Shown: positions 3,953 to 39,469 of the stretch, piece by piece
Layout of the letters: each line of letters begins with the position of its first letter
Numbering within the stretch: the first letter of the stretch is position 1
From: Archangium violaceum
Lineage (GTDB): Bacteria > Myxococcota > Myxococcia > Myxococcales > Myxococcaceae
Assembly: GCF_016887565.1 (NCBI RefSeq)
Contig: NZ_CP069396.1
Span: 12,692,001 to 12,756,000 of the forward strand
Length of the DNA stretch: 64,000 bases
Direction: 5' to 3'
Position numbers and translations under genes: made by a program
Notes under the pieces: model-generated
Databases searched by the model: none
The model's input: only the letters and a program-made list of their open reading frames with translations
What the model was told of the DNA's origin: nothing

Positions 3953-5257
3953 GTGAAACCGTTTGGCTGCCTGGTTGGATTGTCGGCCGTTGCACTTCTC
4001 GCTTGTGGCACCTCACCGGAGCTGGAGGCCGAAGCGGCTCCCGTTCGAGCCGAAGGGGCGGTGTTGCCCGTCGTGGATCCAGGCTCGAGCGCCTGGAGCT
4101 ACCTCGAACCGGGGCTGCGGTACCGGGGCAATCGCCGGGCTTCCGCGGTGGCGGTGGATCGCCAGGGCAACTCCACTGTCCTGGCGACCTTCCAGAGCGA
4201 AGGGAGCGACACGATGTCGCTCCTGTCGTTCAGCTCCACGGGGCAACAGCGGTGGCGGCGCGACTTCACGGCCCTGTTGGACGGTGACTTCGACATGACC
4301 ACCGACTTCTGGGGGAACGTCTTCATCGTGGGCAGCGCGGACCCCTCGCTGGACCTGGGCGGCGGACCGCTGGGGACCCGGGCCTTCGTGGCGAAGTTTT
4401 CCGCCTCCGGCGCCCTCCTCTGGCAGAAGCCCCTGTGTGACAGCGCCACGGTGTCGTCGGTGACGACCGACTCCCAAGGTGCCGTCTGGTTCGGGGGTTC
4501 CGTCAGCAAGGGGTGCAACATCGGCGGCGGCCCGCTCTGGGAGGTCAATGACAGGACCCAGGGCTTCATCGCCAAGTTCGACGCGCTCGGCGAGTACGTC
4601 TTCTCGCGAGCCATCGGAGGGAAAGGCGATCTGGTCGTCGTCCAGGACCTCGCCGTCACGGCGGACAATGGCGTCGTGGTCGTGGGGGGCCGCTATGTCT
4701 TCTCCGAATCGGAATACATCCGTCCCTTCATCTCCAAGTTCGCCAGCAACGGGCCGCACCGGTGGTTCCGGGAGTACCCGGAGGCCTATGGCGAGTTCTG
4801 GGAGGTGGACGTGGACAACGACCAGGTCGTGGCGGTGGGCGCGTACTCGTTGGACATCGTCTTCAAGGGGGTGCGCTACCCGGCGACCAGCATCTTTGGC
4901 GATGGGCTGGTGGTGGCGTACACCGGCTCGGGTAGCGAGACGTGGCTCCAGCGCATGGGGTGCTGGGCCAAGGCGGTGAGCGCCCGGGCGGGACAGGTGG
5001 CGGTGCTCGCGTCCTCGTGCTCCCGGTCCCTGCCCTTCCCCGAGCAGGTGGGAGTGAGCGGAAATGACGGAGTGCTGGGCCTCTATCGGGCCAACGGGAC
5101 GCCCGTCCGGGCACGGGGAGTCGGCCTCTACCACCAGTCGGGTTGGGACGTGGCCATGAGCCCCATCGGTGTCGCCACCGTGACGGGCAACGAGAACATC
5201 CAGGCGGACCCCACCGGGTATACGGTCAGCCTGTCCGTCTTCGGCCTCATGCCCTAG
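3953..5257 (+). CDS. Secreted lipoprotein with SBBP-like beta-propeller repeats
   Basis: A 434-residue lipoprotein. The GTG at 3953 is chosen because GGAGG at 3942-3946 sits 6 nt before it, whereas the ATG at 3947 touches that site. The product starts VKPFGCLVGLSAVALLACG, a short signal peptide with lipobox LLAC. The rest is built from repeated strands of the kind WGNVFIVGSAD, GAVWFGGSV, NGVVVVGGRY, each near a segment ending in FxxKFxxxG. This pattern is typical of SBBP/beta-propeller proteins that are abundant in myxobacterial envelopes. The function is unknown; a role as a surface or periplasmic binding scaffold is a guess. Confidence 0.75.
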   Translation: MKPFGCLVGLSAVALLACGTSPELEAEAAPVRAEGAVLPVVDPGSSAWSYLEPGLRYRGNRRASAVAVDRQGNSTVLATFQSEGSDTMSLLSFSSTGQQRWRRDFTALLDGDFDMTTDFWGNVFIVGSADPSLDLGGGPLGTRAFVAKFSASGALLWQKPLCDSATVSSVTTDSQGAVWFGGSVSKGCNIGGGPLWEVNDRTQGFIAKFDALGEYVFSRAIGGKGDLVVVQDLAVTADNGVVVVGGRYVFSESEYIRPFISKFASNGPHRWFREYPEAYGEFWEVDVDNDQVVAVGAYSLDIVFKGVRYPATSIFGDGLVVAYTGSGSETWLQRMGCWAKAVSARAGQVAVLASSCSRSLPFPEQVGVSGNDGVLGLYRANGTPVRARGVGLYHQSGWDVAMSPIGVATVTGNENIQADPTGYTVSLSVFGLMP

Positions 5258-7611: not shown

Positions 7612-9243
7612 ATGACTCGAGCGAGGGAACCAGGCTGGGTGAGCACCCTCCTTCTGGTGTGTCTGTTGGGGTGTGACGGCGGTGAGCGGGGGGGCCCCCT
7701 GGCTGAACCGCGCCTCCCAGACGGTGCCCCGAGCGTCGAGCGCTCCCGGAGCGAGGAGCCCCCTGGCGGTGACGACAGGCCCAAGCCCCCCTGCCGCCCG
7801 ACCGCGGGAGGCCCCTACTGGCTCGAGGAGGGAGAGCTGCTCGAGGTGCGCGTGTCGTGCGCCACGGGCCTCCCGCTGGAAGGCAAGGACTTCCACCTGA
7901 AGGAGCTGCCATCCGGCGCCCACTACGACAAGAAGACGGCGACCCTGAGTTGGAGGCCACGGCTGGATCAGGCCGGGGTGTACGAGCTCGAGCTGGAGGG
8001 GCCGAAGAAGGAGGTCGGGCGATTGAAGGTGGGGGTGGCGGACAACTGGAAGGATCCGAGCAACGAGCCACTAAAAGACGTCACCCGCTACACCGAGGAG
8101 TACGGACTGCCGGTGTTCCACCTCGCAGGCGGCACGGAGCTCAATCCGGACACCTACTCGCCCGTGAGCATCACGTATCGAGGGCACACGTATACGGCGC
8201 AAGCGAAGCTGCGCGGGAGCAGCTCGCTGAGCTTCCCGAAGAACAGCTACACCGTGAAGTTCGCCGCGGGGGACCCGTTCAACGAGCCCGCGTTGGGAGG
8301 AGGGTTCACGGAGCGGCGCTCACTGGTGCTGGTGAACACCTTCAACGACAACTCCTATCTGCGCTCGCGGCTGGGTTTCGAGCTGTGGAGCCGGCTCTCA
8401 CCCGAAGCCATCCCGGTGAGGACCTTCAGCGTGGTGGTGTTCCTGGACGGGGCCTACTACGGCCTCTACACGGTGGCGGACCACGTCAACGCGCGGCACA
8501 TGAAGGCGAACGGGCTGAGCGAGGAGGGCAACCTCTACAAGGCGGAGACGGGCGGGGCCAACTTCCGCCTGGTGGATCAGTTCGGCCGGCCCAAGCCGCA
8601 CCTGCACGTGGGCTTCGAGAAGAAGGACGGGCAGCCGCCGGAGGGTGAGCCGGGCGCCTTCGACGATCTGGACGCGTTCGTCGCCTTCGTGGCGACCGCG
8701 AGCGACGAGGCATTCCGCACGCAGGGCCCCGTGCTCTTCCGCCAGCGGGACTACGAGGACTGGTGGGCCTTCGTCACCCTGCTGGTGGCGCTCGACGCGG
8801 ACGTGAAGAACGCGCACCACTACCACGACCCGAGCGGTGGCCCATGGCGGTACATCCCGTGGGACCTGGATGGGACGTTCGGGCAGACGTGGAAGACCCA
8901 GCGGCTGCGGCCGACGGCGGCGCTGGACGTGGGGCAGGACAACGAGATGTTCCGGCGCCTGCTGGCCGAGCCGGCCTTCTCCGGTCCATTGAAGGCTCGC
9001 CTCCGGGCCGCGCTCACCCAGGAGCTCGCGGTGCCACTGCTGCATGCACGGCTCGACGCGCTGGCCCAGGAGATCGGCCCGAGCGCGCGGCGAGACGAAG
9101 CCCGGTGGATGGCGCAGTACCGGGGCTTCCCGCTCTGGTCGTCGCGCACGGACTTCACGACCTTCGACGAAGAGGTGGAGTACATCCGCCAGTGGATCTC
9201 CCAACGCTGGGCCTTCCTGGATGCCCAGCTGGCCACCCCCTGA
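7612..9243 (+). CDS. CotH-family lipoprotein (protein kinase-like fold)
   Basis: A 543-residue lipoprotein. ATG 7612 is preceded by GGAGGA at 7602-7607, and the signal peptide ends in the lipobox LLGC. Residues about 60-140 form a strand-rich Ig/cadherin-like module. Residues about 150-540 form the CotH domain, with KNSYTVKF, VLVNTFNDNSYLRSRL, the loop YYGLYTVADHVNARHM and the metal-binding signature YIPWDLDGTFG at about 414-424. CotH proteins in spore formers are atypical kinases that phosphorylate coat proteins. Whether this one acts in myxospore or envelope assembly is inference. Confidence 0.85.
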   Translation: MTRAREPGWVSTLLLVCLLGCDGGERGGPLAEPRLPDGAPSVERSRSEEPPGGDDRPKPPCRPTAGGPYWLEEGELLEVRVSCATGLPLEGKDFHLKELPSGAHYDKKTATLSWRPRLDQAGVYELELEGPKKEVGRLKVGVADNWKDPSNEPLKDVTRYTEEYGLPVFHLAGGTELNPDTYSPVSITYRGHTYTAQAKLRGSSSLSFPKNSYTVKFAAGDPFNEPALGGGFTERRSLVLVNTFNDNSYLRSRLGFELWSRLSPEAIPVRTFSVVVFLDGAYYGLYTVADHVNARHMKANGLSEEGNLYKAETGGANFRLVDQFGRPKPHLHVGFEKKDGQPPEGEPGAFDDLDAFVAFVATASDEAFRTQGPVLFRQRDYEDWWAFVTLLVALDADVKNAHHYHDPSGGPWRYIPWDLDGTFGQTWKTQRLRPTAALDVGQDNEMFRRLLAEPAFSGPLKARLRAALTQELAVPLLHARLDALAQEIGPSARRDEARWMAQYRGFPLWSSRTDFTTFDEEVEYIRQWISQRWAFLDAQLATP

Positions 9244-9262
9244 GCGGTGTCCATCACACCGT

Positions 9263-9297
9263 TGCACGAATGTTCAACCGCATTTAACATTCGTGCA
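9263..9297. promoter_or_regulatory. AbiE operator: 12-bp perfect inverted repeat
   Basis: TGCACGAATGTT (9263-9274) and AACATTCGTGCA (9286-9297) are perfect 12-bp arms with an 11-bp AT-richer spacer. The last base of the right arm is the A of the antitoxin ATG. AbiEi antitoxins are known to repress their operon by binding inverted repeats at the promoter, so this is very probably the autoregulatory operator. Confidence 0.8.
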
Positions 9298-9893
9298 TGC
9301 AGGTCGTTCGCGTGGATCCACCGAATTGGGGGCGGCTCTACGAAGTCGCCGCGGGCCAGGGTGGCTACGTCACCACCCAGCAGGCGCAGGAGGCGGGCTA
9401 TTCCCTGCCGCTCCTGACCCATCACGTGAAGCAGGGACGCCTGCAGCGGGCACGGCGTGGCATCTACCGCCTGACGCATTACCCGGCTGGAGAGAACGAG
9501 GATCTCATCATCCTGTGGTTGTGGAGCGAGCGAGCTGGCGCCTTCAGCCATGAGACAGCGCTCTCCCTGCACCAGCTCTCGGATGCCATGCCAGCGATGT
9601 ACCACCTCACCCTGCCGGCGGCCTGGTCGCGTCGGCGGCTGCGAGTCCCTCCCAGGGTTCGCGTGTACTACGCGGACGTAACGGGGCAAGACCTGACCTG
9701 GGCAGGAGGAGTACCCGCCACCTCACCTCTTCGTACGCTCGTGGATTGTGTAACCGCGGCGGTTCTTCCCGAGTTCATTCACTCCGCCTACAGGCAGATC
9801 CAACAACGGGGTCTCGCGGCTCCCGACGAACTACGAGACAGGTTGTCCCCATTCTTTGAAGGAGCTGACTTTTCAGGTAGACTCCGTGCGTGA
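9297..9893 (+). CDS. AbiEi-type antitoxin of type IV toxin-antitoxin system
   Basis: A 198-residue protein with an N-terminal winged-helix domain (residues about 12-60: GGYVTTQQAQEAGYSLPLLTHHVKQG... RARRGIYRL) and a C-terminal domain typical of AbiEi antitoxins, including the conserved Ser/Arg-rich TSPLRTLVDC segment at about 141-150. In type IV systems the antitoxin does not bind the toxin but counteracts its effect and represses the operon through the N-terminal domain. Its stop overlaps the toxin start by four bases (GTGA). The ATG lies at the very edge of the operator and has no Shine-Dalgarno site, so translation may be leaderless; GTG 9312 is an alternative start. Confidence 0.85.
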   Translation: MQVVRVDPPNWGRLYEVAAGQGGYVTTQQAQEAGYSLPLLTHHVKQGRLQRARRGIYRLTHYPAGENEDLIILWLWSERAGAFSHETALSLHQLSDAMPAMYHLTLPAAWSRRRLRVPPRVRVYYADVTGQDLTWAGGVPATSPLRTLVDCVTAAVLPEFIHSAYRQIQQRGLAAPDELRDRLSPFFEGADFSGRLRA

Positions 9894-10786
9894 GTTCAAG
9901 GCGATACGCTACGCCCGATGCATTCAAGCAAGCGCTCGAAGCCCGCTTGCGGAAAGCCGCGACACAGCAGGGCGTCAGCATGAACCGGCTGCGCCAGCGA
10001 CTCATCTTCGAGCGATTTCTCGTGCGAGTGTTCGCGATCCTGGGTGAGAGCGCCATCCTCAAAGGAGGTGTCGTTCTTGAGTTGCGTCTCAGCCGGGCTC
10101 GCGCAACCAAGGACGTGGACCTGCGCTGCATGGGAAGCCCGCGCGCCCTGCTCGAACAGCTCCGCTCCGCGGGCCGGCAAGACGAGGGAGACCACCTCTT
10201 CTTCGAGGTGAACCTCGCTCCAGGCGGTGACACCATCGCGGGCGAAGGGATCATCTACGAGGGCCGCCGCTTCCAGGTCGAAGCACGACTGGCGGGCAAG
10301 CGCTATGGAGATCCATTCGGAGTCGATGCTGGCTTCGGTGACACGTTGACAGGAGAGGTGGAGCAGCTCGAAGGAAGTGATCTTCTCTCCTTCGCGGACA
10401 TCCCGCGCTCGCGACTCCGCGTCTACCCTCGTGAGACACACGTCGCCGAGAAACTGCACGCCTACACGCTTCCGCGTGAGCTCGAGAACTCCCGGGTCAA
10501 GGACCTCCCGGATATCGCCTTGCTTGCCCAGACCGGACGCTTCAATCGCGAGATTCTACGTGCGGCGCTCGAAAGGACGTTCGCATTCCGCGGCACGCAT
10601 CAACTGCCTGGATCCATGCCACCGCCCCTGACCTCCTGGACCGACCGGTACGCTCGCATGGCGCAAGATCACGGGCTCCCCTGGCCCACGCTCGCGGACG
10701 TCCACCGCGCCGCGAGCGCCTTCCTCGACCCCATCCTCGGTGGCGGCGGGGAGAAGTGGAGCCCCGAGCGTTGGACCTGGGAGTGA
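9890..10786 (+). CDS. AbiEii-type nucleotidyltransferase toxin
   Basis: A 298-residue protein starting at GTG 9890 inside the antitoxin stop. It has the AbiEii/AbiGii nucleotidyltransferase signature: ILKGGVVLELRL at residues 56-67, followed by RATKDVDLR with the two metal-binding acids D75 and D77. The remaining helical domain carries ETHVAEKLHA and KDLPDIALLA, both usual for the family. Such toxins modify tRNA acceptor ends or other nucleotide targets and stop growth, often as an abortive phage defence. All key residues appear intact, so an active toxin is expected. Confidence 0.87.
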   Translation: MSSRRYATPDAFKQALEARLRKAATQQGVSMNRLRQRLIFERFLVRVFAILGESAILKGGVVLELRLSRARATKDVDLRCMGSPRALLEQLRSAGRQDEGDHLFFEVNLAPGGDTIAGEGIIYEGRRFQVEARLAGKRYGDPFGVDAGFGDTLTGEVEQLEGSDLLSFADIPRSRLRVYPRETHVAEKLHAYTLPRELENSRVKDLPDIALLAQTGRFNREILRAALERTFAFRGTHQLPGSMPPPLTSWTDRYARMAQDHGLPWPTLADVHRAASAFLDPILGGGGEKWSPERWTWE

Positions 10787-10795
10787 ATCCCGCGC

Positions 10796-12574
10796 CTACT
10801 CCAGCGACGCTCCGGTGTCCCCCGGCATCAAGGCCTGACGCGCGAGCGACACCGGCAGCCCCAGCTTCAGGAACCGGTCGTGGAAGTCGCGCAACGTGAA
10901 CGTCTGCCCGCGTGCCTCCAGATAGCGCTTGTAGTCCTCGCGCAGCTTCAGGATCTGCATCCGTCCCAACGCGTAATAGAGATACGTCGGGTTGAACGTG
11001 CCCCGCTGCACCTCGCGCAGCGCCGGGAAGGGCTCGAAGTAGGCGATCTCCACGTACCGCTTCGCCGCCCCCTCCACCGACTCGCCAAAGGCATGCATCG
11101 CCAGGCCCGCGTGCCACCGCGCATGCCGCTGCAACGCCCGCCGCAGCTGCCCCAACCGCACTGACGGGTCTCCCCCTCCGAAGCCCTCGTCCACCATCAT
11201 CTGCTCCACGTAGTGCGCCCAGCCCTCCACCAACGACGCGGGCGTGAACACCTTGCGCACCTCGGTGGGAATCTGGGCCCCGTACAGCAATTGCACGAAG
11301 TGGCCCGGGATTCCCTCGTGCACCGTGATGCCCAGCAGCCCCGCGCGGTTGAAGTACGTCAGGTGCTGCGCCTTCTGCTCCTCCGTCCACCCCGGCTCGA
11401 CGTTGGTGATGTTGTAGAAGGCCTCCGTCGCCCGCGTCTCGAACGGCCCCGGCGTGTCCATCGACGCGAAGCCAATCCGCGAGTACGCCGGCGTCTCGCG
11501 CACCGTCGGCAGCCGCTCCGACGGCAGCGTCAACAGGCCCCTCTCCCTCACGAAGCGCTGGCACTCCTCCAGTTGCTTGCGCGCCGTGGGAATCAGCTCC
11601 TCGGCCGAGGGATGGTCGTGCACCAGTGCGTCCATCACCTCCCCGGGCGGCTTCGACGCATCCACCCGCGCCGCCTCCGCCGCCACCTTCGCCTGGTACT
11701 CGCGGATGGTCCGCTCGTTGATGTCACGCAGCTGCTCGACCGTCAGCGCCACGTGCTCCTCCAACGCGAGCTTCTTCTCGAAGCGCTCCCTCCCCAGCCG
11801 GAAGTCCCCCTTCGCCTTCGGCAGCAGCTCCTTCTCCTGCCACCGCACGAACCCCTCCACCTCGGCCGTGGTCCGCGCCAGCGCGGCGGAGAACGACCGC
11901 CGCAGCGCCGCGTCCACCTGCCCCAGTCCCTGTGCCTCCAGCGCCTTCGGCAGGTCCGCGCGCAGGAAGCCCACCGTGCCGCGCGCGTCGAGCAGGGCCT
12001 GCTCGGCCCACGGCCTCGGCACATCGCGCAGGTTCGCCTTCGCCGCCGCCACCACCGAGCCAATCCCCTCCATCCGCGCCATCAGGCTGCGCACCCGCTC
12101 CTCCACCGGAGCGAACTCGCGCTCCGACAGCGACGAGAGGCCCGTCGCGATGGTCCGGGTGTAGAGCATCGGGTCGCGCTGCCAGTCTCGTGACTCCTCC
12201 AGCTCGAACAGCTCCGCGCGGATGGCGTTCTCCAGGATGCGCACGTCGAACACGGCATCCCCGGTGAGCGCCGCGCGGTCCAACCGCTCCAGCCGCGCCA
12301 GCCACCCGTTCAGCACCCCTGTCTTTCGTTGGATGGCCTCGGCCGACAGCTCCGGCAGCCGCGCGTCGTACGCGTGCAGGCCCAGGTTCGTCGAGCGGAT
12401 GGGATGGGCGGCGTAGTACCAGTCGAGGTACTCGCGAGCGAAGCGGGTGTACTCGGCATCGGCGGGAGTGGAGGCCATGGCGGACGAGGAGGCCGCCGGC
12501 ACGACCCCCGTGCGCGGAGCACACGCGGGAACCAGGAGCAGGGCGGCACAGGACAAAAGGGAACGAAGATTCAC
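10796..12574 (-). CDS. DUF885 family lipoprotein, putative zinc peptidase
   Basis: A 592-residue secreted lipoprotein. The GTG at 12574 starts VNLRSLLSCAALLLVPACAP with lipobox VPAC; the frame continues upstream but is not coding-like. The body is mostly helical and matches the DUF885 family of M2/M3-like metallopeptidases. The zinc motif is HEGIPGH in the segment LLGITVHEGIPGHFVQ, and a downstream Glu lies in SLVEGWAHYVEQMM. Substrate is unknown; peptides in the periplasm or outside the cell are likely for a predatory bacterium. It is divergent from the lipoprotein starting at 12673. Confidence 0.85.
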   Translation of the reverse strand: MNLRSLLSCAALLLVPACAPRTGVVPAASSSAMASTPADAEYTRFAREYLDWYYAAHPIRSTNLGLHAYDARLPELSAEAIQRKTGVLNGWLARLERLDRAALTGDAVFDVRILENAIRAELFELEESRDWQRDPMLYTRTIATGLSSLSEREFAPVEERVRSLMARMEGIGSVVAAAKANLRDVPRPWAEQALLDARGTVGFLRADLPKALEAQGLGQVDAALRRSFSAALARTTAEVEGFVRWQEKELLPKAKGDFRLGRERFEKKLALEEHVALTVEQLRDINERTIREYQAKVAAEAARVDASKPPGEVMDALVHDHPSAEELIPTARKQLEECQRFVRERGLLTLPSERLPTVRETPAYSRIGFASMDTPGPFETRATEAFYNITNVEPGWTEEQKAQHLTYFNRAGLLGITVHEGIPGHFVQLLYGAQIPTEVRKVFTPASLVEGWAHYVEQMMVDEGFGGGDPSVRLGQLRRALQRHARWHAGLAMHAFGESVEGAAKRYVEIAYFEPFPALREVQRGTFNPTYLYYALGRMQILKLREDYKRYLEARGQTFTLRDFHDRFLKLGLPVSLARQALMPGDTGASLE

Positions 12575-12672
12575 GGCCCGCAGTCTCCATTCCCCCTGAG
12601 CCACGGGGAAGACCCGTGCAGTGAAGTGAAGGCTTGCGTACGAGACACCTCTCCCATCAATTTCCCACCCCC

Positions 12673-14199
12673 ATGAACTTCCGCGCGCTGCTCGCCTCCG
12701 CCCTCCTCCTGCCCGCCTGCGCGGCGCAGAGAGCCTCGACCCCTTCCACTCCCGAACCCACGGCGTCAGCCGCCCCGACCGGCCTCCAGCGCGAAGCGGG
12801 GCCCATCGGCACGGCCCACCCCATCGTCCTCCAGGCCGCCGCCACGGACGGGCGCTGGGTGGTCGCCTGCCAGGCACGCGAGGACACGAATGGCGATGGG
12901 AAGCTCGAGGTCCGCTACGGCCAGCACGGAGACACCCGCGGGGACGCGCTCGCGCCCTACCTGTTCCTCGACCCGGGTGAAGGCGAGCGGCTCGACGACT
13001 TCCTCACCGCGGATCCCACCGACCGCTACCTCGTGGTGGTCCGCGGCGGTTCGCTCCGGCTGCTCGACACGTACACGCGCGCCGACACCGAGCTGGCCGC
13101 ACCGGGCACCTTCCCCGAGGGCAAAGCCCCCCGCTCGGCCCTGCCCGTGTCCTTCTCGCGGGATGGCAAGCACCTGCTCCTGGTGGTGCTGACCGGGCCG
13201 GACAAGAAGGCCACGGCCTTCCTCGTCAACCTGGCGGATGGGAGCCGGCGGGAGGTGCAACACGGCCCCGGTGTACTGGGCGAGGCCACGCTCGACCCGG
13301 GGGGCCGGTGGGTGATGTTCGGTGTGCTCACGCAGGACACCGATGGTGATGGACAACTGACCTGGCCCAAGCTGAAGACCTCGCTCTCGCCCCGGGGTTG
13401 CCGGGGTCCCATCCTCTCGGCCAGCCAGTACGGCTATACCGGAGACAAGCCCTCCTTCGTCCTGGGCCGGGTGAGTGGAGGCCCGCTCGTGCCGGCGGGC
13501 GACATGCTCCTGCCCGTGGGAGACCTCGCGCTGCGCCAGGGTGAGCAGGGCGAGCTGTTCGTCGAGGACGCCGCGGGCCAGCGCACCGAGTGGGTCCCCG
13601 CGGGCTGCGGCGCGCGGCCCATCCACGTGGACCTCGAGCACCAGCAGCTCCTGGTGACCTGCACCGCGCGAGGCAACGCGCTCGAGCTGCACGGCGCCCG
13701 GGTGCACCAGCCGCTCGGGCTGGCCGTCGAGCCGCCCCACCGGCGCAACGAGCTCTCCTCGGACCCCACCCGTCTGTACCCCGTCTCCCCCGCCGCTCCC
13801 GTCGTGAACCAGAGCCTGGTGGACCTGGAGACGCGCACCGTGCACCCGGTGCCCGTGCCAGGAGAGGTGAACTACACCGAGGGAACTCGCGCCCTGGTGG
13901 TCCAGGAGTCCGAGGCCGGCGCCCCCAAGCGGCTGTGGTTCCTGGACGTCGCCACCGGAGAGAAGCGGGAGCTCGGCCCGGTGGAGGGCTATGGAATCAT
14001 GGCCGCGGGGAACCTCGTCTACATCCAGGGCGCCCTGGTGGACCTGAGCACCGGCCAGCTCCTCGGGAAGCTCGAGGAACACCTCGAGGTCCTCGACAAA
14101 CAGGGACGTACGCTGCGCACCCCGAGCCTGGGGGCGCGGTTGGCACCAGTGGGACCCCTCCAATGGACGCCCGCGGTGCAACCGGGCGGGCACCCGTGA
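12673..14199 (+). CDS. Hypothetical lipoprotein with propeller-like repeats
   Basis: A 508-residue protein. ATG 12673 gives MNFRALLASALLLPACAAQ, a compact lipoprotein signal with lipobox LPAC. The mature part is strand-rich, with WD/TolB-like pieces such as VSFSRDGKHLLLVVL, LDPGGRWVMFGVL and two calcium-like loops, DTNGDGKLEV and DTDGDGQLTW. The overall pattern suggests a beta-propeller that scans or binds a ligand in the periplasm. I recognise no enzymatic motif. It shares a 98-bp divergent promoter region with the DUF885 gene, so the two may be co-regulated. Confidence 0.7.
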   Translation: MNFRALLASALLLPACAAQRASTPSTPEPTASAAPTGLQREAGPIGTAHPIVLQAAATDGRWVVACQAREDTNGDGKLEVRYGQHGDTRGDALAPYLFLDPGEGERLDDFLTADPTDRYLVVVRGGSLRLLDTYTRADTELAAPGTFPEGKAPRSALPVSFSRDGKHLLLVVLTGPDKKATAFLVNLADGSRREVQHGPGVLGEATLDPGGRWVMFGVLTQDTDGDGQLTWPKLKTSLSPRGCRGPILSASQYGYTGDKPSFVLGRVSGGPLVPAGDMLLPVGDLALRQGEQGELFVEDAAGQRTEWVPAGCGARPIHVDLEHQQLLVTCTARGNALELHGARVHQPLGLAVEPPHRRNELSSDPTRLYPVSPAAPVVNQSLVDLETRTVHPVPVPGEVNYTEGTRALVVQESEAGAPKRLWFLDVATGEKRELGPVEGYGIMAAGNLVYIQGALVDLSTGQLLGKLEEHLEVLDKQGRTLRTPSLGARLAPVGPLQWTPAVQPGGHP

Positions 14200-37947: not shown

Positions 37948-38086
37948 GCCCTACAGATGGGAACCGGGCCGCGCCAATGCCACCCCTCGTGCAGGATGCA
38001 ACCCCGACAGCACCCGGCGGCCCCCCGCTTCCTCGGGAGGTGTTTCCCGCCCAGTCTGGCGCGCGGCCCGAGTTTAGGATGAAGGC

Positions 38087-39469
38087 ATGGACACCGGACC
38101 TGTCGCGCCCGTGGTGGAGCCGCGCCCCATGCGGGTGCTGGTGGTGGACGACGAGCGGAACATCCGCACCACGCTGCGCATGTGCCTGGAGGGGCTCGGC
38201 TGCGAGGTACGCGAGGCCCCCACCGCCGAGGCCGCGCTCGCCGCGCTCGCCCAGGGGCCGGCCGACCTGGCCTTCGTGGACCTGCGCCTGGGCACCGCCA
38301 GCGGGTTGGACCTGCTCCCCCGCCTGCTCGCCGAGTCCCCCACCCTGGATGTCGTCCTCATCACCGCGTACGCCACCTTTGATACCGCCGTGGAAGCGGT
38401 GAAGCGCGGGGCACGTGACTACCTGCCCAAGCCCTTCACTCCCGCGCAGATACGGCACCTCGTGGAGAAGGCGCGGGCCCACCGGGAGCTGAGCTCGCAG
38501 CTGGGCAACCTGGAGGGGCAGCTCGCCCAGTCCGTGCCCGAGGCCACGCTGGAGACGGCCTCGCCCGCCATGCACGCGGCCCTCGCGCTCGTCACCCGGG
38601 CGGCGGCCTCGGACGCGGCGGTGCTGCTGCGCGGGGAGAGCGGAACGGGCAAGGGAGTGCTCGCGCGGGCGCTGCACTCGATGAGCGCGCGGCGCCGCCG
38701 GCCCTTCGTCACCGTCAACTGCCCCACCCTCTCCGAGCAGCTCCTGTCCAGCGAGCTCTTCGGCCACGTGCGAGGGGCCTTCACCGGAGCGGTGAGGGAC
38801 CAGCCGGGCCGGGTGGAGCAGGCCGAGGGGGGCACGCTCTTCCTCGACGAGGTGGCGGAGATGAGCCCCGCGCTGCAGGCGCAGTTGCTGCGCTTCCTGC
38901 AGGAGAAGCAGTTCGAGCGGCTGGGCGAGGGGCGCACGCGCCGGGCGGACGTGCGGGTGGTGGCGGCCACGAACCGGGATTTGGAGAAGGACGTGGCCGC
39001 GGGCCACTTCCGGGAGGACCTGCTCTACCGGCTCAACGTCATCGAGGTGAAGCTGCCGTCGCTGCGCGAGCGGCGCGAGGACATCCTCCCGCTGGCGAGG
39101 CGCTTCGTGGCCTTCTTCGCGCGGACGGCGCAGCGGCCACCACCGGAACTGTCCCCGGCGACGGAGAAGATGCTGCTGGCGTACCCGTGGCCGGGCAACG
39201 TGCGAGAGCTGCGCAACGCCCTGGAGCGGGCGATCATCATGTGGCCGGCGGAGGTGCTGGAGCCGCAGGCGTTCCCGGAGCGGATTGCGGCGGCGACGGG
39301 CTCGGGGGTGGCGCTGGGCGGGCCGCACACGCTGGAGGAGGTGGAGCGCGAGCACATCCTCCGGGTGATGGCGAGTGTCCCCACGCTGGACGAGGCGGCA
39401 CACATCCTCGGCATCGACGCGTCCACGCTGTGGCGCAAGCGCAAGAAGTACGAGTCCGCGCCCGGCTGA
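38087..39469 (+). CDS. Sigma-54-dependent response regulator, probable partner of the Kdp-linked kinase
   Basis: A 460-residue NtrC/AlgB-type regulator. The receiver domain (residues about 16-125) has the phosphoacceptor D65 (FVDLRLG) with acidic pair D21/D22 and K110. The AAA+ domain has Walker A GESGTGKG, the sigma-54 loop GAFTGA and Walker [12 protein letters not shown]; the Fis HTH is [22 protein letters not shown]. It faces the histidine kinase gene ending at 40068, with one HTH gene between them. No KdpE-type regulator occurs at this kdp locus, so this protein is the best candidate for receiving that kinase's signal. Confidence 0.9.

Follow-up and report, generated by a model that had tools for sequence, protein, structure and literature searches.

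AbiEi autorepression has been shown in S. agalactiae (Dy et al. 2014, PMC3985639); here and below, published systems are given as set out in the available portions of the cited reports. In the S. agalactiae abiEi-abiEii operon, AbiEi is the autorepressor and AbiEii the nucleotidyltransferase (NTase) toxin, the two genes overlap by 4 nt, and an inverted repeat lies over the promoter, with the -35 element in its left arm and 17 bp between the -35 and -10 elements (PMC3985639). The Archangium violaceum locus described here is predicted to be alike in these respects; it differs in that the S. agalactiae operon is transcribed from 26 bp before the ATG and has an RBS (PMC3985639), and in that the S. 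agalactiae repeat arms are TGTTGCTTTTA-N27-TAAAAGCAACA, whereas ours has 12-bp arms around N11, a predicted transcription start on the start codon and no RBS. Autorepression has also been shown for the AbiEi-family protein Rv2827c of M. tuberculosis (Beck et al. 2020, PMC7319586). The repeats of the Rv2827c-Rv2826c operon overlap the promoter and, as in our locus, reach the start codon, to about -1, but there are four of them, each of 23 bp, spread over -1 to -131 and 13 bp apart within pairs; in the available text of that paper the word "leaderless" occurs in the reference list only.

Leaderless control is on record for toxin-antitoxin modules and for other autorepressors. Of 37 toxin-antitoxin pairs in M. 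tuberculosis, 32 are leaderless (Cortes et al. 2013, PMC3898074); unlike our locus these belong to an actinobacterium and were mapped experimentally, they come with no operator geometry in the available text, and the main text makes no mention of Rv2827c. The acuR-acuI-dddL operon of R. sphaeroides (Rhodobacter) resembles the arrangement predicted for ours in having the autorepressor first in a leaderless operon, a repeat over the promoter, -35 and -10 elements directly before the ATG, and downstream genes with Shine-Dalgarno sites (Sullivan et al. 2011, PMC3017554); it differs in that AcuR is a TetR-family protein with an inducer and no toxin-antitoxin function, in that its leaderless start was proven by 5' RACE, and in its repeat, TAATAGAC-n6-GTCTATTA. 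Mesorhizobium nreAXY likewise encodes an autorepressor on a leaderless mRNA (proven by 5' RACE) with the operator within the promoter, but the protein belongs to the CsoR/RcnR family and the operator lies in the -35/-10 spacer, short of the start codon (PMC12724321). A search of titles and abstract openings, which speaks for the searched collection and is silent on papers outside it, found no leaderless AbiE operon, and the operator layout seen here is not described in the available text of two of its papers on AbiE and leaderless mRNAs. Leaderless autorepressor operons are already known (acuR, nreA), and the fusion of operator, promoter and start codon predicted here for AbiE is an added variant.

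An AbiE operon in A. violaceum

The window (the whole 64,000-nucleotide stretch of A. violaceum DNA analysed) contains a two-gene operon with overlapping frames:

9297 to 9893, plus strand: abiEi, antitoxin/repressor, 198 aa; ATG start, stop TGA at 9891-9893; assigned from Pfam, PADLOC and PDB 6y8q
9890 to 10786, plus strand: abiEii, nucleotidyltransferase toxin, 298 aa; GTG start; assigned from Pfam AbiEii, PADLOC AbiEii and motifs I-IV

A preliminary description of this DNA had called the pair AbiE, and the Pfam, PADLOC, PDB profile and fold matches all agree. The antitoxin scores 43.8 bits against Pfam AbiEi_4 (cut-off 25) and 21.5 bits, just below the cut-off of 22.2, against AbiEi_1, and it matches PADLOC AbiEi at 3.4e-66. 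A profile built from 27 antitoxin relatives retrieves 9hlo (AbiGI, 9.5e-6) and 6y8q (S. agalactiae AbiEi, 1.1e-5) from the PDB, and 6y8q is also the best fold match (E 3.7e-6) of a structural model of the antitoxin (pLDDT 76.5, nine sequences), though model and structure superpose poorly overall (TM 0.45, rmsd 9.9). The antitoxin is an AbiEi with an N-terminal winged helix and a C-terminal antitoxin domain. The downstream protein matches Pfam AbiEii at 3.9e-29 and contains each of the patterns G[GS]x14DhD, KLxAa and +DxxD once, identifying it from its sequence as a predicted AbiEii NTase with motifs I-IV; its motif I-II spacing is 14, versus the 15 quoted in the available text of PMC3985639. 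None of the antitoxin, toxin and CotH proteins had an NCBIfam match. A second antitoxin copy was sought in the genome and none was found at E values up to 10 (25 candidates scored). The operon is flanked by a CotH-domain gene (cotH) upstream, which ends at 9243, and by a convergent DUF885 gene downstream. The locus had also been put forward as a clean case of type IV autoregulation; so far we infer such control from homology.

An antitoxin match at E 1e-10 or better was found in 53 of the 195 Myxococcota genomes searched. There were 59 matching places, of which 50 were analysed (window included) and 9, weak or partial, were left out. A scan of genome contigs yielded one relative only, in a Thermoanaerobaculia MAG (L031), which brings the set to 51 loci; L032 repeats the window's own locus. 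A distant homologue (L052, 35% identity) lacks a comparable operator; it was counted as a miss and is left out of the 50-locus counts (Shine-Dalgarno, tandem operator and promoter spacing). Starts were set by hand for L006, L007, L013 and L034, and automatic scoring covered 46 operator-bearing loci. Kinship among the loci inflates these counts; the 36 automatically scored loci with a spacing of 35 were also reduced to a non-redundant set of 27, from which the profile used below was made.

The toxin GTG overlaps the antitoxin TGA by 4 nt, an arrangement present in 33 of the 42 loci that have both genes (of the 51 loci, 7 lack a toxin match and 2 ran off the contig). Six operator-bearing AbiEi genes have no toxin match by tblastn, with the window toxin as query, in the 1.4-2.0 kb downstream (L002, L014, L017, L028, L033 and L049, the last with an antitoxin that is also cut short); these are possibly orphan antitoxins or autorepressors. 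The abiE genes adjoin the DUF885 gene in their own genome (window 9297-12877) and in G064, and lie 4 kb from it in G061, while G062, G063 and G065 keep the DUF885 gene and have no abiE match. From this comparison of G061-G065, abiE appears to be old in the genus and to have been lost in some of its members.

An inverted repeat ending on the antitoxin start codon

The sequence directly before abiEi contains an inverted repeat, the predicted operator, with the following arms:

9263 to 9274, plus strand: left operator arm TGCACGAATGTT; conserved core GCAC... from 9264 in the 27-locus profile; overlaps the predicted -35 element
9286 to 9297, plus strand: right operator arm AACATTCGTGCA, whose conserved core runs to C 9296, adjoining the start codon; overlaps the predicted -10 element

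The arms are complementary at 12 of 12 positions across an 11-nt spacer, and position 9297, the last of the right arm, is the A of the antitoxin ATG, exactly as the preliminary description had it; if one mismatch is allowed, the repeat at 9263-9297 lengthens to 15 bp. No other perfect inverted repeat in the 64-kb window combines arms of 12 bp or longer with a spacer of 3-20, and 400 kb sampled from the same genome contain six such repeats. No match to the AbiE repeat at up to 3 mismatches arose in 100 shuffles of the window, and the AbiE site is the sole match at that threshold in the 13.2-Mb genome. The AbiE repeat is not a product of chance. Its G+C content is 43%, versus 70% for the window. 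Across homologues the conserved arm stops at the C before the start codon, and the paired A of the ATG lies outside the conserved core, since 8 of the 27 non-redundant loci have GTG there. A wider operator regulon was considered and rejected, because a genome search allowing up to 3 mismatches turned up no second match to the operator.

The window has a single operator, without a second copy upstream. Thirteen of the 50 loci have a second copy, placed 51-55 bp (about five helical turns) further upstream (L010, L011, L014, L015, L017, L020, L024, L029, L030, L042, L046, L047 and L049); 14 loci had been flagged, and L045, with its copy at 141 bp and a left arm of only 6/13, was removed as spurious. 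The two arms of the L030 copy disagree, the right arm matching best at 102 bp and the left at 51, and several further loci keep only a left-arm copy, at 52-53 bp.

A predicted promoter within the repeat

A candidate sigma-70-type promoter falls inside the repeat:

9262 to 9267, plus strand: predicted -35 element TTGCAC, 35 nt before the ATG; T-35, T-34, G-33 and the distance are conserved
9285 to 9290, plus strand: predicted -10 element TAACAT, 17 bp after the -35 element and 6 nt before the ATG; from the homologue profile
9297 (or within about 1 nt), plus strand: predicted transcription start, the A of the ATG, from promoter geometry

The boxes TTGCAC and TAACAT are weak by the E. coli consensus, with which the -35 element agrees at 3 of 6 positions, and a generic sigma-70 promoter scan returned no sites and did not flag them. 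Their placement is conserved: in the 50 loci the distance from the TTGCAC-like box to the ATG or GTG is 35 nt in 38 (17 genera, 7 families), 36 in 7, 38 in 4 and 42 in 1. TAnnnT follows that box at 17 bp in 27 of the 50 and at 18 bp in 21 more (48 together), the 18-bp form weighing less because the palindrome partly implies it. L039 lacks TAnnnT at either distance, and in L051 the left arm is degenerate. Numbered with the start codon as +1, the 27-locus profile opens with T-35 T-34 G-33 C-32 A-31 C-30; a further block reaches about -21, the middle varies, and T-13 T-12 A-11 A-10 .. T-7 comes next, followed by GTGC adjoining the A or G of the start codon. This is the textbook spacing for a sigma-70-type promoter whose transcript begins with the start codon.

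Part of this conservation goes beyond the symmetry of the repeat. T-35, T-34 and G-33 are kept in 23, 25 and 27 of the 27 loci, even though -35 and -34 mirror bases of the start codon. Only 10 of the 27 loci have a complementary -23/-11 pair, versus 271 of 324 cells for twelve other arm pairs (Fisher 3.6e-7, with related loci not independent); the palindrome is broken at this pair because A is preferred at -11, the key position of a -10 element. The retention of T-35/T-34 and the broken -23/-11 pair thus appear to be promoter features that the palindrome leaves unexplained. The earlier proposal that the repeat covers the promoter and abuts the start codon is borne out, as a prediction, by this conservation across homologues.

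Translation start of the antitoxin

An in-frame TAA at 9285-9287 limits early starts to ATG 9297 or GTG 9312. Of the 50 antitoxin genes 29 start with ATG and 21 with GTG; GTG is less usual on leaderless mRNAs in E. coli. Only 53 nt lie between the end of cotH and the ATG. Little room had been expected for a Shine-Dalgarno site, and this proved correct: a core (GGAG, GAGG or AGGA at -20 to -5) precedes 1 of the 50 antitoxin starts and is absent before the window's antitoxin, so that a leader with an RBS of the S. agalactiae type was not found. By the same rule 86 of 228 sampled starts of this genome carry a core, as do 21 of 33 overlapping toxins (about 4.6 expected), while the window's own toxin has none. 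Promoter boxes placed for a start on the start codon, together with no Shine-Dalgarno site, are what the acuR operon has as well. The suggestion of a leaderless mRNA, one of two that the preliminary description had offered, thus draws support from the conserved promoter-to-start geometry and the missing Shine-Dalgarno site.

The other suggestion, a later start at GTG 9312, fared badly. Translation from that codon would imply a 15-nt leader beginning at 9297; the codon is in frame and the first antitoxin codons are poorly conserved, but an extra in-frame ATG, GTG or TTG before residue 12 occurs in only 2 of the 46 operator-bearing loci (L001, which is the window, and L008), whereas an ATG or GTG abuts the operator in most, and no Shine-Dalgarno core precedes 9312. 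This scarcity led us to reject GTG 9312 as the start, and we regard its use as very improbable.

Alternative explanations

A different account would keep the repeat as the AbiEi operator and give the mRNA an ordinary leader, with transcription beginning in or before cotH and ATG 9297 used without a Shine-Dalgarno site. Because cotH ends at 9243, 53 nt before the ATG, readthrough is possible, and the weakness of the promoter boxes points the same way. Yet promoter-spaced boxes are conserved inside the repeat in loci whose upstream sequences differ, and a readthrough RNA would fold the repeat into a stem holding the A of the AUG, so that we consider an upstream start unlikely. If the repeat instead acted mainly as an RNA hairpin, whether as a cotH terminator or as a translational switch, one could point to the folding of RNA 9244-9330, which only 4 of 200 shuffled sequences equal (z -2.28). 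The scan found no terminator-like site there and Rfam no match. An RNA stem should also have fewer A-C mismatches than G-U pairs, but between -33 and -24 in the arms A-C occupies 11 cells and G-U 6. The scan, the Rfam null and this mismatch pattern led us to discard hairpin or terminator as the main role, to which we give very little credence; the hairpin could still matter on readthrough RNA.

Proposed mechanism

We consider it likely, from sequence conservation, that operator, sigma-70-type promoter and start codon are fused at 9262-9299, giving a leaderless, autorepressed antitoxin mRNA that starts at or next to the start codon; AbiEi binding, repression, the exact transcription start and leaderless translation are what we infer from this arrangement. 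The segment would then govern a type IV (AbiE) toxin-antitoxin operon as a single element, with the -35 element TTGCAC in the left operator arm and the -10 element TAACAT in the right. The positions of the boxes in the arms predict that RNA polymerase initiates on the A of the antitoxin ATG or no more than about 1 nt away from it; the abiEi mRNA would then have no leader, and its translation would not rely on a Shine-Dalgarno site. A pair of AbiEi subunits, each on its own arm (23 bp from centre to centre), would shut RNA polymerase out of both boxes. With plentiful antitoxin both boxes would be covered and the operon off; when the antitoxin drops, polymerase would begin on the start codon and leaderless translation of the antitoxin would follow, the toxin being made from the same mRNA by coupling across the 4-nt stop/start overlap. 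On RNA read through from cotH, the repeat may fold into a stem holding the A of the AUG, a possible second lock.

If the proposed fusion is correct, leaderless toxin-antitoxin control, documented for M. tuberculosis, would reach Myxococcota, and the AbiE operator would have a layout unlike the two studied ones, a 35-bp element serving as operator, promoter and translation start. The 50 loci would also offer natural variation from which the DNA specificity of AbiEi could be read. With the antitoxin leaderless and its neighbour, the toxin, coupled or Shine-Dalgarno-led, the question arises whether their ratio is tied to translational stress. As a speculation that we think unlikely to hold, the operon mRNA might be translated by two modes of initiation, leaderless for the antitoxin and coupled, often with a Shine-Dalgarno site, for the toxin. 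The antitoxin:toxin ratio might then follow the ribosome pool (the supply of free 70S ribosomes and initiation factors, and whether the 16S 3' end is intact or cut), so that AbiE would act as a translational-stress sensor atop autorepression, with the repeat also silencing readthrough mRNA via an AUG-trapping hairpin.

AbiEi on plasmids and viral contigs

Among 81 plasmid records with a match, we examined nine AbiEi genes from other phyla. Six have TAnnnT at exactly -12 to -7 (Simkania, Thermus, Deinococcus, Streptomyces, Rhodococcus and Mycobacterium branderi), two (Corynebacterium L059 and E. faecium L061) have purine-rich, Shine-Dalgarno-like leaders instead, and the Neochlamydia copy is split. 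The Simkania repeat abuts the ATG and a wide repeat in Rhodococcus reaches it, while those in Deinococcus, Streptomyces, Corynebacterium and E. faecium lie further upstream of the start; none was found before the Thermus and M. branderi genes. This survey suggests that leaderless AbiEi may be widespread, whereas a complete fusion of all three elements (operator, promoter, start codon) is clearest in Myxococcota.

A phage collection gave two partial matches. Scanning IMG/VR for the operator pattern returned two contigs, one without an AbiEi behind the match: on L113 (minus strand, 5104-5140) an AbiE-like operator ends on an ATG with a 25-aa frame behind it, and the 10.8 kb examined contain no AbiEi or AbiEii match, so this operator is stray or borrowed. 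Three distant AbiEi relatives in IMG/VR (L085, L087 and L089) have an upstream repeat with the opposite half-site order, for example TTTCGTGC...GCACGAAA in L089; L085 and L087 have Shine-Dalgarno-like leaders.

Leaderless genes in the genome at large

Leaderless genes have been predicted in 8 of 33 delta-proteobacterial genomes (PMC3160421, in its available text), and a genome-wide Cappable-seq study of M. xanthus exists (PMC8844925). Among the 228 sampled starts of this genome (from the window and L062-L081), TAnnnT stands at -12 in 7, versus about 1 per position elsewhere (Poisson 1e-4), a peak from which leaderless genes probably exist more generally in A. violaceum. One of these -12 cases precedes an ORF at window positions 38077-39469.
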